Shown: positions 1-64,000 of the stretch, piece after piece
How the letters are laid out: every line of letters begins with the position of its first letter
Numbering within the stretch: position 1 is the stretch's first letter
From: Cloeon dipterum
Taxonomy: Eukaryota > Arthropoda > Insecta > Ephemeroptera > Baetidae
Direction: 5' to 3'
DNA: 64,000 nt
Assembly: GCF_949628265.1 (NCBI RefSeq)
Contig: NC_088788.1
Location: 8,432,001 to 8,496,000 of the forward strand
Translations under genes and position numbers: made by a program
The notes under the pieces: model-generated
What the model saw: only the letters and a program-made list of their open reading frames with translations
Databases searched by the model: none
What the model was told of the DNA's origin: nothing

Positions 1-3000
1 CACCGCCCTGACCAAGGAGCTGGCCCGCAGGGGACACCAGGTCACCAATAATTTCACATTTAATTCACTTAAAAGAAAATTAAATTTTTCATATATTAGG
101 TGACGGTTTTGAGTCCATTTCCGCAGAAGGCAGCGCCGCCAGGTTACATCGACTTCGATCTAATGCACGGGCCGGTCGCCGAGTTCAAAAATTCGCTGGC
201 AAACGAGGGGCCCGTGCTCTACTCGCCGGAGCCCAGGCACTTTTTCCACACGGCCCTGCACCTGTGGCGCGTCTCCGTCGGACTCACGCACGCCGTCATG
301 ACTTCTCCCCAGGTGTGTTTTAGAATATTTCTGTTAAATGTGGTATTTAAAGAGTTATTGAATTTGAAAATTATAAGCACCAGCTAATTGCAGATTTAAA
401 ACTGCTACCAAGTTTTTGCGAATGCGTAATTAAATATTTGAATAAAATAAAAAAATAAAATCGTGGAATCTAAAATAATCCAATTGAATATTTTTATTGA
501 ACAATTTTTTTTAAATTTGTTAAAAGTGATATATTTGAAATTAGGGTGATTTTTATTACTAATTCTTTGTCTATGGGTAGGACTTTAAATATACATTTAA
601 TATGTATTTAGAACAAAATTTAAAACAATATTTGAAGACATTTGTAATGACCTATTTTTTAACCAATAAACATCCCTATTCCATGAACATTTAAATATAT
701 TTTTATAGAAATAAAATTTTAGTATTTTTCATCCTACAATTTTTGCGTCAGGTGAAGGACGTGATGAAGAACAAGGGCGGCTACGACCTGGTGATCGCCG
801 AGCACTTTCTGCACGAGGCGCTGCACGGTCTGGCCTGGTACTTCGAGGTGCCGCTGGTGCTGTTCGCACCCTCCGACCTGGTGCCCCTTCCCTCGGGCGT
901 GGCACCTCTTTCCTACGTGCCGCACCCCCTACTCGCCCTCAACAAGCCCATGAGCTTCACCGACAGATTGGTCAACGTGCTGGCCAACGCTTTCTGGACC
1001 CTGGGATACAATTATTACTATCTGCCACAGCAGGACGCCATCAGCAAAGAGGTTAAAATTATGAAGAGCAGATTTTTTTCAATTTAAATTTGTATTTCAT
1101 ATTTAATTATTATTGAAGCAGTTAATGTCTAATGGACAGGGAAACAAAGGAAGCATTTAAATTAATTCAGTAATAGCATTATATTTTACTCTCTCTCTTT
1201 AAAAAAAAATTAGAATATATTAAAATGAAATATTATAAATTAAAATAGTTTCTTAAGAACAAGAATTCAAATTAAAATATAAATACAAATAAAAATAACC
1301 CAAATTTATATAATTTTCTATTTATGTTGTTTTACTAGGTTTTTGGTAACGAGGCGCCTAGCGTTTGGGAAACGGAGCCGTGGCTGGTTCTCCTAAATTC
1401 CGATCCAGCGTTAAACGGGCCGGTGCCCCGCATGCCCTGGGAGGTGGAGGTGGGCGGGCTGCACGTCCGGTCGACGCCGTGGCCGCTGCCGGACGAGCTG
1501 CAGGCCTTCCTGGATGGCGCCGACGCTGGCCTCATCTACTTCTCGTTCGGCAGCAGCCTCAGGTGCTCGCAGATGCCGCCGGCCCTGAGACAGGTTTTTG
1601 TTGACGCATTTAGAGCGTTGCCGCAGCGCGTCGTCTGGGTCTACGACGAAGACGAACTGCAGGGCAAGCCGGAAAACGTGTTCATCGCCAAGTGGGTCCA
1701 CCAGCAGGAGGTGCTAGGTTGGCAAAATGGTTTTCTTTTTTTAAATGGGACGTAGAACAGAGAAAACAGTTTTGGCTCATTCTAACTACATTACTGAAAA
1801 TCACACCGCCGTTTTTTTTAAACACAGTATTTTTTGATCTCGTAAAAAACGGTGTATATGCATCGAATTCCTCTCTATCAACTTGACACCAAATTAAAGG
1901 TTATTGGTCAAGTAAAAAGGTAATTCTGGGTATTTACTTGAAAATTTCAGTTGTTTTTTGTGCTCTTTAAAAAAACAGCATTATTTTTAATTAAATTAAA
2001 CCCTGCTTAAAAGCAGATCAAATAAGGCCTGTGTGAAATTTTTAAAGTGGTCCTTTGCTTTATATTTAAGAGATTCCACCATGGCACAGAAAAACACGAC
2101 TTTTCCGATTTTTCTAATGTTTATAATAATAAATATCGTCAGAACAAATAATCATCAGAATTGCAAAATCTTCTCACCGCTAGACTCTTCTCGACTTCGT
2201 GCTCTATTTGATCAGAATTATTTCAAAAAATTCAGGCTGATGTGATTAGAGCCATATTTTTATACTACAAATAAATGTAGGAAATTTAATAATAAGAAAG
2301 AGTAGAATAATTTTGTTCTCGTTTTATTTTTTCAGGGAGATAGAAAAAATTAAACCAGGACTTTTTAACATTAAAAAACAGACGTTCTTATGCATCCCGC
2401 CATTTTTATTAACAAATAAAAATTAGTTTCGTCGCCAAACAATTCACTTATTTAAATATTTAAAAAAAATAATATTTAAGAATTGACTGTATTTTAGCCC
2501 ATCCAAACACGGTGGCCATGATCACGCACGGCGGGCCGGTGAGCGGGCAGGAGGCGGCCCACTTCGGCGTGCCCGTGGTGGCCATTCCTGTCTTCGGCGA
2601 CCAACGCATCCGTGCCCAACGCACGCAGAGGGACAATCTGGGCGTGATGCTCGAGATGCGCAACGTGACGACACCCTCGCTGCTCTGGGCCCTGAAAGAG
2701 GTCACCACAAACCCCAGGTGAGCCCGTGAAATGCATTCTCTGACGCCAATCGCAGCCATTTTTGTTCCGATAAATCCAAAACACACGTGGCAAAAAATTC
2801 TTTAAAGGAAGCCTGACAGGGCTGGAAAATCCAGTAAAAGTAATGAAGTAATTTTAGAAGATAATAATTAAGTTACGTAAAATCATGATTGAAATGTTCA
2901 TAAATGAAAAACTCTTGAAACAAAATCGCTTTTTCTGGGTCACCGAGGGAAAAACGCCTAAAACCAGTTGCAGATATCTACATTTTCGCATTTTCACTTC

Positions 3001-3780
3001 GGAACATTTTAAAAAATTGCCCAGATACTATATTATTAAATTGAGAAAAAACAAAAATGGCGGGAAAATCAAATAGATATTCACATCATTTTTTTGGGTT
3101 TGAAAATGAAACTTAAAAGGCTTTTCTCTTCCGTAAAAGAGTCAGAAGATTCCAGTTCTGTGGTCAAATAGTTGCGTAGAGGCCTGAATGATCCAGAAAA
3201 ATGAATTTTCACTATTTCGTGTAACACTTAGAGGACTGAAATAGACGCCATATATTCTCTTCTAGGTATTTTTAAGATTTAATTCGAGTTTCAGCCATTT
3301 TTTTATCACATATTCCAACATGGCGGACGCTCCAGCATTTTTAAACATTTTAAAACTTTAAAACATAGACATCATCCAATGCATATGATAAAATCTGTGG
3401 TCTTAATATTTGTTTTGGGTTCGGAACATTTTGTCAAGCTAAAATGAAAGGTTGGCGTGAGCCCGGTGGATTTTTTTTTTGTACATTTTGACATTTCAAA
3501 GTATTTATTGTTGAAAATAAACAACTCTGTTTGATTGCGAAGGATAAAAGAAGCGAGTGTGCAGCGTCGAGTGGCGGGGGCGGAGACGGGGGCGGCGCTG
3601 GAGAAGGCCGTCTTCTGGGTGGAGTGGGTGTTGCGGCGCCGCGGCGACGGTCGGGGGGACGCGTGGTCGGCGCCGCGGCTCCGCTTCTGGCAGCGACACA
3701 GCCTGGACGTGGTCGGCGCCGCGCTGCTGGGGCCCGCCGCCGCCATTTTTCTACTCGTCGTTGTCGTGCTGCGGAAATAA
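1..3780 (+). CDS. UDP-glycosyltransferase (UGT), C-terminal six exons; N-terminus outside window
   Basis: UGTs transfer a sugar from a UDP-sugar to small lipophilic acceptors at the ER membrane. Exons read from splice signals: 1-40, 100-312, 752-1051, 1339-1717, 2498-2717, 3543-3780. All join in frame, with introns in phases 0,0,0,1,2 and GT-AG ends. The first exon gives ELARRGHQ and the second VTVLSPFP, the conserved N-terminal UGT strand-turn. Exons 4 and 5 join to WVHQQEVLAHPN followed by MITHGGPVSGQEAAHFGVPV and, shortly after, FGDQ. This is the UGT donor-binding signature, with its His-Gly-Gly, Glu and terminal Asp-Gln. The last exon ends in a hydrophobic membrane anchor (LDVVGAALLGPAAAIFLLVV) and a short basic tail (LRK). 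The last acceptor (3541-3542) has a modest pyrimidine tract but restores the expected spacing to AVFWVEWVL. Signal peptide and catalytic His lie left of the window. The specific UGT family cannot be assigned. Confidence 0.93.
313..751 (+). other. UGT intron, AT-rich
   Basis: Very AT-rich intron between two GC-rich UGT exons, with a GTGTGT donor and a GCGTCAG acceptor. I see no gene or repeat in it. Confidence 0.8.
1718..3542 (+). other. UGT introns 4 and 5, no other gene seen
   Basis: Two AT-rich introns (1718-2497 and 2718-3542) flank the donor-signature exon 2498-2717. Short open frames inside them are AT-rich and resemble no family. A TTTATT at 3504-3509 would read as AATAAA on the minus strand. 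It is the nearest canonical poly(A) signal I found downstream of the convergent ABCG gene. Confidence 0.7.
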
Positions 3781-57163: not shown

Positions 57164-60100
57164 TTATTTTGGTCCAAATAACTTCTTCTTTAGCATAATT
57201 TCCCGATGTTGCTTCATGGTCTTGAGTAATTTTTTCTCTTTACTCTTTGGTAGTTCGCTTATCTCTCCATCTGAGATTTTGTCCCTGACGAGAAGGAAGG
57301 CCGCCAACGTTATGCTGATAGTGACTCCTCCGTACTTTGTAAAGCGAAAAATACCAAAGTCGTCGAGCGTCTCGTCTTTCTTTCGCTGATCTCGGTGTCC
57401 GAAAAAGAAATCGTGCGCATACTCGGTGAGCAATTGGACCTTTTCCCGTTCATCGCGGTGGGCTGAGTGGCCTTCAAGAAATCCGGATTTGACGAGGACT
57501 GAAGTGACGGTTGATTCGAAGACATGCTCGCTCAGCTCGTAAATGTTGATGTCGGGCCCGCTCCTCAGTGGCTGAAAGGTGGCCACCTTTTCCAAGGTGC
57601 CGATCCTTTCAATCAAGTCGCCGGCCCCAGCATTCACAATATTTGACACAATTTCTTTTATCACTTTTAATTTAACGGTCATGCCAAGTTTCTCATGCAG
57701 GAAAACGATTTGATTAGTTTTAGAAATTTCGTTGATTTTGGCCACGATGAGTACTGGACGAACCCCTTTGAGACATTCAATCAGGGCAATGTCACTCCCG
57801 GGCCTGGTCAGTATCAACAAAGGGATTTTGTCCCTGGCCAAGGACCTAATCATGCCGAGCATACCATCCTTGTATTCCTCTTGCACTTGTTCGAAGCCGT
57901 CTAGAATGATGAATTCGCTCGCTCCAAAGGTCCGCGGCTCTCCTTTCATCTTTGCGAATTTCTCGACGAAGCACCGATATCCCATTTTCCAGTCGAACTC
58001 TTCAAGGAACTGGTTTTCCTCTTTGATGTCCACAAAGGTGACCAGTTTTTGCTTCATCGTCAGGGCTCTCCCGGCGAGGGTTTCGGCCAGTTTGGACTTT
58101 CCGGAGCCGGACTCGGCTGTGATAATCGGTACGCAGTACGTTGCTTTTGATTTGCCTTTAGCATCTTCGTCAGCCAAACCGAGTATCTGCTCGAGCTCGC
58201 TGAATGATATTTCCCTTTTTGTCGGCGTGATCAAAGTGAAACTGTCGATGAAAAGGTCAACCGGGAACTTCATGCTCAGTGTCTTTTCTAGCGTGCTAAT
58301 CACAAGCGGGCTAACTCTGTTTTCCTCTTTGGCTCTCCGCAGCAAAGTGAAAAAGAACTTCTGGAACGTGTTCTCCTCTATCGAACCGGGCTTTGCAAAT
58401 TCCTCCAGCGTTTCGGTGAACAGTTGCACCGAGTCTGCAAAGAAATTTACATTAATTCAACTCTTACAGTAGCACTCTGAAATTTTAATTTTTGACCAGC
58501 GGGGGCCAGATGTGCTATAAAATTGGTTCCCACTGCGCAGATCCAAGATGGCGTCTGAATGTGTGAAATAAAAAGCTTTCTTTGGATTCCCGTACGAGTG
58601 CCAAGAGTTTGTTTTTACGATACAAAAGACACAATTTGTACGAGTAATGCAATTATGTCACAATATTGACCAAAACTTGGTTAATCTTTTCGCGCATTTT
58701 CACGTGACTGATTTTTAACGCCATACTCCACCGGACGCCATTGCACGAATCTGGACCCCGTTTTTTTTACATTGCCAATCGATTCCCAAAGGTTCGAGTT
58801 AGGTTTCGCAGCTGAAGAGACGGAAAATGTAAAAATTTTGTTCTGGATCCAATTTTACTCCGTCAAAAAAGAAATTTCATTGCTTTTTTTTAATTGGTTC
58901 TCGGTCTAACCTGATTGAGGAAGAATCACAGTCAGCAGGCCAGAATGCAAGGTGCCAGTTCTTGTAAATTCTGTTTTTTGGAGGTCCTAAAAAATTACAC
59001 ATTTTAATTTCTTATCAAAATTATGCAATGGCATTAAATACCAGATAGCCTTGAGTTTTTAAATCACTTTCTCTGTCGTCTGCATGGAGAAAAACGAAGA
59101 TTTTCGGTTTTCCAATCCACTTCTTAGTGCTCGGGTAAACCGCAGAGTAAATGACTCTCTTGATTGGAGTTCGTTCTCCATAAATGCTGGTGAATAATTC
59201 GTTACTCTGCTTTGAATAGTAGATTGGAGCTACGATACAAACTAGAAGACAGCCCTCGAGTTCTTCTTCATCATCTGAGACTGCATTGAAAAGATTATTA
59301 TAGGATCATATTAAAATTTAATAAAATTACCATACCTAATTTTTTAATCTCGTCAAACCTGGGAGGGCTGTGTACCTCAAACCCGAAAATTCCCTTCAAG
59401 TTATTTTGCAATTTTTGGATATGTTTCGAATCCCTGTGTCGGGGAGTGGTGTAAACGTAGGCCTTGCGCGTTAAAAGCGGAATTTCCACGTCTGATTTCC
59501 AATCGTAACTAAATTTAAGTAAACTGGACTTCTTACGAAATTGCACTTTGGCTCTGCAAAAGAATATAATATATATAATTCATATCGTCTGATTTGAAAA
59601 AATAAATCATTTACTGACCTGCGAGAAAAAGTGAATTGTCTGTGCGAGAAAACTTTTATTTCTGGGGTCGATCCGCACCCTCTCTGTAAATTTTGTTCGA
59701 AATGCTGATAGCACATGCATCTTGTGAGGAACTCCTCGAGGCTAACATCCTTCTCCAAATTATTTAATGTTTTGCAGAACGCTTGGATTAGATGCGTTCC
59801 TTCACTATTCCGTAACGCCAATGTAGCTGTAGACAAGAAGTGAAAATTATTTCATCCTGACACAAAACAATTTATTCCTACTTTCGACGGAAGCGAACAT
59901 AGTGACGAAATTTAATGGTTTCTTTTCTTTAGCCTGGCGAACATCTTCTTGGATCACTCGCACAGCATTTATGTTACGTTGGGTGTCCTTGGTAATATCT
60001 TTGCCCCTGAGGACATTTTGACGCATCATCATCTTTTTACCACATTTGCAGTATTTTTCTCCAAGCAACATTTCGTCGTGGATTTTTCCTCGACAGGCCT

Positions 60101-61632
60101 GATTGGCAAATAAAATTTTTTGAATTTTTACAACCAAACAACTCTTACCGCAATGAAAATAAGCTTGAGCGTCTTGGATAGTAACGGATTGTTATTTAAT
60201 TGGTAGTAAACGTCAGAAATTTCCACAGACTCTTTGTGATGCGTATGAACTATTCCGTTTTTGCCCCCATGCGTAGAAATAAAGACGAAGAACAACTCCG
60301 GAGATTGGTCTTCTGCAGAACGAAATTATAAATTAATGTTCCTTTAATCCGTGTGAAAGATCTTGAAAACTTACCAAGCAGCCGGAATTTCTGCCTAATT
60401 TTATCTTTTTTGGATAAATAAGCCAATATGTCTTGCAAAGGCTCTGACGTTACGTAAAGTCCTACTTTTAAGCCGCTAAATGCACCCATTATCTGCTTTT
60501 TGTCTGCCTCAACCGCAGCTGTTCGCTCTTTATCGGGAACATTCGAATACGAATAGTTGATCAACAGCACACACGCCGTCCTGTAAAAGATTTTATTATT
60601 AAAAAATAATTCTGAATTATATTAAAAGAGGGGCAACAATATTCAATTGAATCATGTACGATCTAAAGCATAAAACATTTTTCTAGGAGTTAAAATGATC
60701 ACTCGTTACAATTAATAATTGTAATTGACGCAATGGCCGTATTGGCTAAAACACGTAAATTGTGTAAAATCACGTTCGTAAACGATGACGTAATGAATTG
60801 CGCAATAAAAGCATTGTTTTTCTTTGGCTTCTAAATTTTACAATTAAAATTTAAAATATTTTTAGCATATTTAGAACTCTCTGCTCGCGTCGTATTTTTT
60901 TCGATTGAGTCAGTTACACTTCCTAATTAAAAAAACTATGCAACTCCATAATTTCACCTTTAGCTTAAGACGCAAAAAAATGTTTTAGATTAATGCCAAA
61001 AAACTCATGAGTTTGGATATAGAATAAAATAAAAATATGAAAAATATAAAGAATATTATTATGATGACAACGTTTTTTTTTTCCAATATAATACCGATGT
61101 TTCTATGACAAAAATGGTAATAAATAGCTCTCTTTTTTTTGAATTTTCTAAAATCCTCATTAAAAATGAAAAACCTAGGTTTGAAAGTAAAAAAATGCTT
61201 TTAAAGACTGAAGGACTCTATTTCGCTACATTTGATGTCCAACTTAACTGTCTCGATGTACTCACAAACCATGTAAATAAAATAAAACAAAAATAAAGTA
61301 TTTTGTTCATAAAGTCGGACTGGACACTGGACACAGTCAAGAATTTGGCCCGAAAACCATTATCTGAAATTTATAGCCCTTCATTTTTTTAAATAAAATA
61401 TATATAACGGATTTTAACCTAACTTTAATCAATGGTTTGCAAATCTTAAGATACAATGGGGAGTTTTTTATCTTTAAAAATCGTAAAAAAACAAAAGGTA
61501 TTTAAAAAGGTAAGTTTTAACAGCTTACCGCACAACTTTAGACTCGTCTCCGTCCCAGTAGCCAATGGATCTCACTTTCTTATTATTCGGAGGAATCAGT
61601 ACAGTTCCAGCTTCATTCAGTTTAGTCTGCAT
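57164..61632 (-). CDS. Caspase / pseudocaspase / NACHT-like NTPase fusion protein, 900 residues, 9 exons
   Basis: Exons in order: 61529-61632, 60375-60580, 60149-60312, 59882-60098, 59619-59826, 59336-59553, 59042-59280, 58911-58986, 57164-58434. They total 2703 nt in continuous frame with GT-AG introns. Domain 1 (about 36-300) is a full caspase unit. It has the start strand ACVLLINYSY with Arg54, His118 in FISTHGG, Cys160 in IAACRG, and a small-subunit region with LRNSEGTHLIQAFC. Domain 2 (about 330-530) repeats this fold, but the His site reads CIVAPIYY and the Cys site FVFLHADDRE, so it should be inactive. Domain 3 has Walker A AESGSGKS (584-591), Walker B FIILDGFE (652-659) and a sensor-like LLILTRPG (683-690), as in NACHT/STAND NTPases. 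No CARD, DED or C-terminal sensor repeats are visible. The ATG at 61632 is the first after an in-frame TGA. Probably an immune or cell-death protein (inference). Confidence 0.85.
58435..58910 (-). other. Intron of the caspase-NTPase gene
   Basis: A 476-bp intron between exon 58911-58986 and the long last exon. It is one of only two long introns in this gene. A loosely mirrored pair (near 58540 and 58735, around GATGGCGTC and GACGCCATT) hints at an old foldback insertion, but the match is weak. Confidence 0.55.
60581..61528 (-). other. First intron of the caspase-NTPase gene
   Basis: A 948-bp AT-rich intron after the 34-codon first exon. Open frames on the plus strand within it are AT-rich and have no recognisable features. 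Confidence 0.7.
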
Positions 61633-62731: not shown

Positions 62732-64000
62732 CTAATGTGATGCATCAAACTCGTCATGTTCTTGAGCGTGGTAAGAGTTCATCGCATTATTTCTGCATTC
62801 ATCCGAGCAGAATAAATTTATGTCCACATAAAACTTCTCGTCGCTTGTGCACTTGGAGCACGGATTTTGATGTAAATCTTTATTTAAAGCGCCGCAATGC
62901 CTGCAGTACTCGAAAGGGAAGTACCAATAAGTGTCCCGCTTGGTGTTGTCGATCACCAATTTGTCGAAGCTTCTGTTGCATTCGTTGAATGCGACGTAGT
63001 ACAGAACCGGAGCCTTTTCTCCTGCGAATTTACACGACACCCTCCACTCGTCGTCCAGCATCGGGAGACTTAAAAAATTTCTCAAATACCACATTCTCCC
63101 ACCCTTCAAGTAGTGACTTAAGGCCAAGTCTAACGTGCAAGCAGTTTCCAATTTAGTCGACAGCCTCGGCAATTTTTCCCTGGGAATCAGCCTCATGGTC
63201 AAGTAGAAAGCGAGACTTTGAATTTGGGATTCATTCAGATTTTTAATTTCCTCTTTAGCAATCTCTAAGAGACTCTTGGGGCTCAAGTCGGAAATTTTGA
63301 ACTTTTTCAAACGGTGGGTGTGCGTGAGATCATCCTTAGGCTCTCGATGCAAGCAGTGTTTCACGAGAGCAAGCAGGATATTTGAAGAGGTCGGCAGTTC
63401 TGGGTGAGCGACGTCAATGATTTGGTCAGGGTAGAAGGAAAGGTGGAACAGAACTTTGATCAGGTCGTTCATATCAGCGACTTTGAGAGAGTGAACCGAT
63501 CGCCGGGAGTATTGCAGTTTGAAATACGAGTTTCTAAGAGCTTTCTCGAATTTGAGGAAGAAGTCGAATGTCAACAAGTCAAAGTGGTGGTTGGTCTGCG
63601 ACGAGATTACTGCACTCGGAAAGCACTCGTTACTGCTATTCGTCAGCGTGTTTAAAAGCGAAGATAGTTGAAGACATTTTTCAAAATGCCTCTTGAATGA
63701 TTCGTCTTCGCTGACCGCACAATAAAAGTCATAGATCGTTGACCTGAAGAAGGCCTGGAGCAAAATCGGCGAGGAATAATACCTTTTCACGTACAGATCG
63801 ATATATTGGACATCCAGGACCATTAATAATTCGCTGCGGCGTTCATAAGCAGAAATGAGCTCATGAACGAAGTTTACGTACCATTCCTTCACATTTTGGC
63901 TGATCATCGGTTCATCATCATTTGTATGATTAAATAATTCGAGCAGGGAGGCCACGAAACAGGGCAAAAGGTACTGCGCGAACTGCCAATCGTTGATATC
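62732..64000 (-). CDS. Protein with C-terminal MYND-like zinc finger; N-terminus outside window
   Basis: One uninterrupted frame from the right edge (first residues DINDWQFAQYLLPCF) to TAG at 62732-62734, 422 residues visible. Most of it is helical-looking and unlike any family I recognise. The last 60 residues hold Cys-x2-Cys (YCRHCG), Cys-x2-Cys (PCSKC), FCSDEC (Cys-x3-Cys) and His-x3-His (HAQEH). This is the MYND zinc-finger pattern with the last cysteine replaced by histidine, and the frame ends in DEFDASH shortly after. MYND fingers bind proline-rich partner peptides. No SET domain is visible in this part, although one could lie further upstream. It lies in tandem with the caspase-NTPase gene, but a functional link is not shown. 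Confidence 0.72.
   Translation of the reverse strand, partial: DINDWQFAQYLLPCFVASLLELFNHTNDDEPMISQNVKEWYVNFVHELISAYERRSELLMVLDVQYIDLYVKRYYSSPILLQAFFRSTIYDFYCAVSEDESFKRHFEKCLQLSSLLNTLTNSSNECFPSAVISSQTNHHFDLLTFDFFLKFEKALRNSYFKLQYSRRSVHSLKVADMNDLIKVLFHLSFYPDQIIDVAHPELPTSSNILLALVKHCLHREPKDDLTHTHRLKKFKISDLSPKSLLEIAKEEIKNLNESQIQSLAFYLTMRLIPREKLPRLSTKLETACTLDLALSHYLKGGRMWYLRNFLSLPMLDDEWRVSCKFAGEKAPVLYYVAFNECNRSFDKLVIDNTKRDTYWYFPFEYCRHCGALNKDLHQNPCSKCTSDEKFYVDINLFCSDECRNNAMNSYHAQEHDEFDASH

Follow-up and report, generated by a model that had tools for sequence, protein, structure and literature searches.

The question raised by this locus is whether a caspase, a degenerate caspase and a NACHT-like ATPase are encoded by a single insect gene and, if so, what kind of protein this would be. 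The locus lies on the minus strand at positions 57164..61632 of a 64,000-nucleotide stretch of Cloeon dipterum DNA (contig NC_088788.1, positions 8,432,001 to 8,496,000), referred to here as the window. Fusion of the three parts in one protein from one gene, as read from the DNA, was confirmed; the protein may be an immune or cell-death sensor that is self-contained. We put the probability at about two-thirds that the window gene is an all-in-one caspase resembling the NOD-like receptors (NLRs), belonging as an ankyrin-less member to a caspase-pseudocaspase-NACHT-ankyrin family of the mayflies Cloeon and Neocloeon.

Exons and domains of the window gene

As the original prediction had it, nine minus-strand exons, all with GT-AG splice sites, join in one unbroken frame into 900 residues and a stop codon. 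The exons and the two ATPase motifs are as follows.

61529..61632, minus strand: exon 1, ATG start, residues 1-35; P0001 begins with identical residues
60375..60580, minus strand: exon 2, first strand and helices of the caspase large subunit
60149..60312, minus strand: exon 3, caspase, catalytic His118 in THGG (60271-60269)
59882..60098, minus strand: exon 4, caspase, catalytic Cys160 in ACRG (60095-60093) and inter-subunit loop
59619..59826, minus strand: exon 5, part of the caspase small subunit
59336..59553, minus strand: exon 6, start of the putative pseudocaspase (domain 2, residues ~315-485)
59042..59280, minus strand: exon 7, pseudocaspase core; GKPKIFVFLHA replaces the strand ending in QACRG
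58911..58986, minus strand: exon 8, pseudocaspase end (HSGLLTVILPQ)
57164..58434, minus strand: exon 9, linker helices, NACHT-derived P-loop NTPase, C-terminal helical/winged-helix part and stop
58094..58117, minus strand: Walker A, AESGSGKS, residues 584-591
57887..57910, minus strand: Walker B, IILDGFEQ, residues 653-660, in which the final acidic position of the NACHT type is substituted

P0001, an independently predicted C. dipterum protein of 915 aa, is 87% identical to the window protein and shares its first ATG; it retains one short intron in frame, and the same intron carries a stop in the window gene. A chance reading frame was rejected on account of predicted proteins 87% and 34–41% identical to the window protein. 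It could also be argued that two neighbours have been wrongly joined, one a double caspase whose end would lie near 58911-58680, the other an ATPase gene of its own. Intron 8 (58911 to 58434) does contain an alternative acceptor with an open tail, and nine of 82 family proteins (see below) are predicted as the two caspase domains alone. This is nevertheless highly improbable. No in-frame ATG follows the upstream stop before the ATPase exon reaches its conserved start; paralogs and independent predictions keep the exon 8/9 junction; and ankyrin-type genes, as well as 10 of the 12 Neocloeon proteins, show the identical caspase-to-ATPase join. The two-gene artefact was rejected after all acceptors of intron 8 had been read and the exon 8/9 junctions of paralogs compared. 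The alternative acceptor lies at 58811 and is followed by 43 open codons (58680-58811, minus strand), which might be used as an alternative last exon and would then yield the caspase pair free of the ATPase.

Domain 1 is an intact caspase, as had been proposed. It scores 56.5 bits with the Pfam caspase profile (cut-off 21.4), carries both residues of the catalytic dyad, which is kept in all seven window-type sequences aligned, and its fold is supported by the matches of a whole-chain model. Among the 50 fold matches listed for this model, 49 were caspases on domain 1 and one was an ATPase, so that none of those listed covers domain 2; the caspase-8/c-FLIP-L complex 3h11 was among them. Domain 2 alone, compared as a profile with solved structures, is homologous to the caspase large subunit (E 5.4e-10). 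It gives a Pfam C14 match in two of nine members (best E 1e-4), and hhalign, run twice, detected no relation to the domain 1 profile. The catalytic dyad is absent in an alignment of 24 sequences at both motifs, the pairing with caspases being taken from the solved-structure search. The second, degenerate caspase of the original prediction thus reads, by its sequence, as a caspase-derived pseudocaspase that has lost its dyad.

The NTPase is NACHT-derived. An NBD-HD1-WHD-HD2-like fold was assigned to the ATPase part of the model, Walker A is kept in seven of seven window-type sequences, and the TRP sensor in six (P0007 has TSP). No death-fold adaptor domain (CARD or DED) was found in a Pfam scan of the window protein.

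A family of fused genes in two mayflies

The C. dipterum genome (190 Mb) contains 105 Pfam NACHT matches, 101 of them above the cut-off and many in open frames of 900–2700 residues. Dense clustering is seen at C2 0.8-4.7 Mb and at C4 29-36 Mb. The two NB-ARC matches are both at NACHT positions, and CARD gave one match at the sensitivity used. Twenty genome stretches with 22 NACHT genes were examined, nine of them picked for an adjacent caspase match. In the other 11, picked for other reasons, 12 of 13 NACHT genes have same-strand upstream exons of domain 1 and/or domain 2. Altogether, 18 of the 22 genes show domain 1, domain 2 and NACHT, three show domain 2 and NACHT in stretches too short to reveal domain 1, and one shows neither. 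The latter, L034 (G000:C1:9153000-9159000), is the genome's best Pfam NACHT match (E 4.4e-12) yet the sole gene examined without caspase exons; a weak NOD2 winged-helix match, below cut-off, adjoins it. The large frames that were scanned terminate in ankyrin repeats.

Splice phases (2,1,0,1,2,1,0,1) are identical in the window gene and in locus L018, which argues for a single ancestral fused gene. Sixteen gene models were aligned to L018 and are therefore biased towards it; 12 have phases 1,0,1,2,1,0,1, six of these with one extra, probably false, intron. The models of L021, L023, L025 and L036 are partial or different, that of L025 mixing two caspase copies: at this locus two sets of domain 1 (575-1022 and 2279-3168) precede a single NACHT exon.

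When both types were combined in an eight-row alignment as query, the last protein search gave 73 proteins, which by their names belong to C. dipterum (61) and Neocloeon triangulifer (12); 57 of the 73 are listed with ankyrin domains, and 10 of the 12 Neocloeon proteins also carry the ATPase. The claim that this domain order had no known counterpart in arthropods is therefore withdrawn, as is the implication of a singleton: the window gene instead belongs to a large mayfly family, on a branch of it that lacks ankyrins. All three protein searches gave matches in these two mayflies alone and in no other insect, but they required shared words of five residues and scored at most 8000 candidates, so that distant relatives may be missed.

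Domain order was determined in 82 proteins (80 search matches, the window protein and L018) using hidden Markov models built partly from the same sequences, with copies within one protein merged. Sixty-seven have domain 1, domain 2 and NACHT, nine the two caspase domains only, three domain 2 and NACHT only, and three have repeated domains and are likely fused neighbouring genes. Domain 1 is present in 79. Of these, 69 span the two catalytic places, with His and Cys in 67, His and Ser in P0022 and Tyr and Phe in P0076; in the remaining 10, one or both places are missing from the sequence. Besides its degenerate caspase, P0076 (LOC135942178) comprises domain 2, NACHT, ankyrins, two BIR domains and a weak RING match, and is either a family member fused to an IAP or two neighbours merged by annotation. 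Domain 1 begins at residue 111-326 in P0011 and P0014-P0022, compared with ~50-60 in others; the extra N-terminal part of P0014 has no Pfam match at E 0.01. The predictions P0068, P0071, P0073, P0074, P0078 and P0080 end in or just past the pseudocaspase and are possibly short isoforms or cut predictions; P0068 corresponds to L030, where the NACHT exon comes next.

A tree was calculated from the 57 of 82 sequences with sufficiently complete domains (P0004 is among those dropped) and was rooted at its midpoint only. The window type forms one clade of six sequences (support 100/100) on a branch of length 2.06, and long branches meet within it. The remaining 42 Cloeon sequences form another clade (99/95), and eight of nine Neocloeon sequences a third (99/98), with P0063 beside the Cloeon clade. 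The separation of the Cloeon and Neocloeon clades points to separate expansions in each. Two window-type paralogs, one of them matching LOC135940529 (P0007), occur at L028 (G000:C3:8384000-8392500), ~100 kb from the window gene, so the ankyrin-less branch is in part clustered locally. Elsewhere in the window, a further gene has an open end of 422 codons at 62735-64000 on the minus strand; its tail is Cys-rich, and no Pfam match in this frame exceeded the cut-off.

The ratio of nonsynonymous (dN) to synonymous (dS) substitution rates, omega, is 0.18–0.50 from caspase to NACHT in seven paralog pairs whose dS could be measured (one of these is near saturation, dS 1.97; an eighth pair is saturated). 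By region, in six pairs among four recent paralogs, omega is 0.10–0.32 before NACHT, 0.22–0.51 in NACHT, 0.42–0.73 in HD/WHD, 0.68–0.91 in the helical part and 0.55–0.99 in the ankyrins. Ankyrin dN exceeds that of NACHT in five of the six.

Proposed function and its rivals

In the usual form of the protein, ankyrin repeats would sense a ligand, upon which the NACHT ATPase would open and oligomerise. Clustering would raise the local caspase concentration and allow activity without CARD or DED adaptors; since CARD matched only once in the genome at the sensitivity used, ~100 genes could hardly rely on the usual adaptor contact. The pseudocaspase may serve as a built-in cis dimer partner or gate, as c-FLIP-L, which acts as dimer partner of caspase-8, does for that enzyme. 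Since the window branch has no ankyrins and altered NACHT switch residues, we read it as most likely a helper or executor, downstream of or beside ankyrin-bearing sensors. The full picture, a radiated system of ~100 caspase-armed receptors in the Cloeon-Neocloeon line, mostly ankyrin-sensing NACHT proteins with their own caspase and pseudocaspase activator and with the window clade as helpers or executors, is tentative and has in our judgement somewhat less than an even chance. If true, this would make it the first inflammasome-like system without adaptors in an insect.

Several observations weigh against the explanation proposed here. The window protein has DGFEQ at Walker B, without the acidic pair of the NACHT type (DGxDE) found as DGFDE or DGYDE in 16 of 17 aligned ankyrin-type loci (L025 is the exception). 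It stays below the Pfam cut-off for PF05729 (NACHT) and is not listed there, although its paralogs P0003 and P0004 do reach it. The motif HQTFAEFLAA(Q) of ankyrin-type members is absent from the window protein, P0001, P0003 and P0005-P0007, and the Pfam scan found no C-terminal sensor repeats. By these residues the window protein may have lost the switch and may not act like an NLR; the self-contained activation platform proposed earlier is plausible. Nine proteins are predicted without ATPase, so expression may sometimes yield less than the full fusion. Moreover, ankyrin dS is lower than NACHT dS in four of the six recent pairs, and in three of them is 0.10–0.16 as against 0.29–0.43; the high ankyrin omega is partly due to this, and the contrast is weaker than omega suggests. 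The lower dS could come from gene conversion, and an omega near 1 can equally mean relaxed constraint.

The main rival to the helper or executor reading is a decaying or neofunctionalised former receptor, either a simple caspase of two domains whose ATP-binding tail is inert or a decoy or regulator of ankyrin-type members. The long branch of the ankyrin-less clade, the Walker B variants of the seven window-type sequences (DGFEQ, DGYES, DGFDS, DAIDA) and the missing HQTFAEFLAA motif fit such decay. We consider it unlikely, as Walker A and the caspase dyad persist throughout these sequences, the TRP sensor in all but one, and the clade holds several old paralogs with whole frames. Less probable again is a family serving developmental cell death at the nymph-subimago-imago moults, with ankyrins reading internal signals. 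Mayflies undergo massive remodelling at emergence, and the caspases of the family are intact; ~100 clustered NACHT copies, separate expansions in the two genera and higher ankyrin omega fit parasite conflict better, without being decisive.

Comparison with known systems

An all-in-one NLR-like caspase would differ from inflammasome receptors of the NLRC4/NAIP type in that the N-terminal effector is the caspase itself and not CARD, PYD or BIR, and in that its repeats are ankyrins or none, the window gene also being without DGFDE. In the caspase-8/c-FLIP-L heterodimer the two partners are separate, whereas the mayfly protein has both in one chain, without DEDs and with a NACHT ATPase fused. Fungal NACHT-ankyrin forms exist, and we know of no pseudocaspase partner in fungal NLRs.

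The words 'caspase', 'NACHT' and 'ankyrin' do not occur in the main text of the C. dipterum genome paper (PMC7250882). No animal caspase-NACHT fusion was found in the parts of PMC2246300 and PMC11797021 covered, and no report of an insect fusion or of this family in a literature search with most subscription papers outside its range. A 2024 survey describes arthropod NLRs as without N-terminal effector domain and considers inflammasomes possible in phyla with NLRs and caspase-1, Arthropoda excepted (PMC11508797); a large insect family with caspase fused to NACHT would revise this picture for mayflies. The expansion of NACHT/NB-ARC genes in coral is similar, with ~500 loci, some with ankyrins, and novel domain sets, but the effectors given in the portion seen are CARD, DED, Death and glycosyl transferase, with no caspase domain among them (PMC4083563). 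Fungal NLRs likewise join a switch domain to a fused enzymatic effector, although caspase is not in the part of the effector list available (PMC4986451).

Closest in layout are prokaryotic STAND (signal transduction ATPases with numerous domains) proteins with an N-terminal metacaspase or caspase, which also unite protease and switch; the mayfly domain differs in matching animal caspases, in being doubled, and in its ankyrin repeats and introns. Caspase effectors on bacterial STAND proteins, along with TIR, are noted in PMC8195603, and PMC4986451 describes enzymatic effectors such as metacaspases as common in complex bacteria, particularly cyanobacteria, effectors fused to the switch as rarer in plants and animals, and the all-in-one layout as possibly ancestral to adaptor-based NLRs. 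The mayfly family would show that layout in animals, in a form directly testable because all parts are in one protein.
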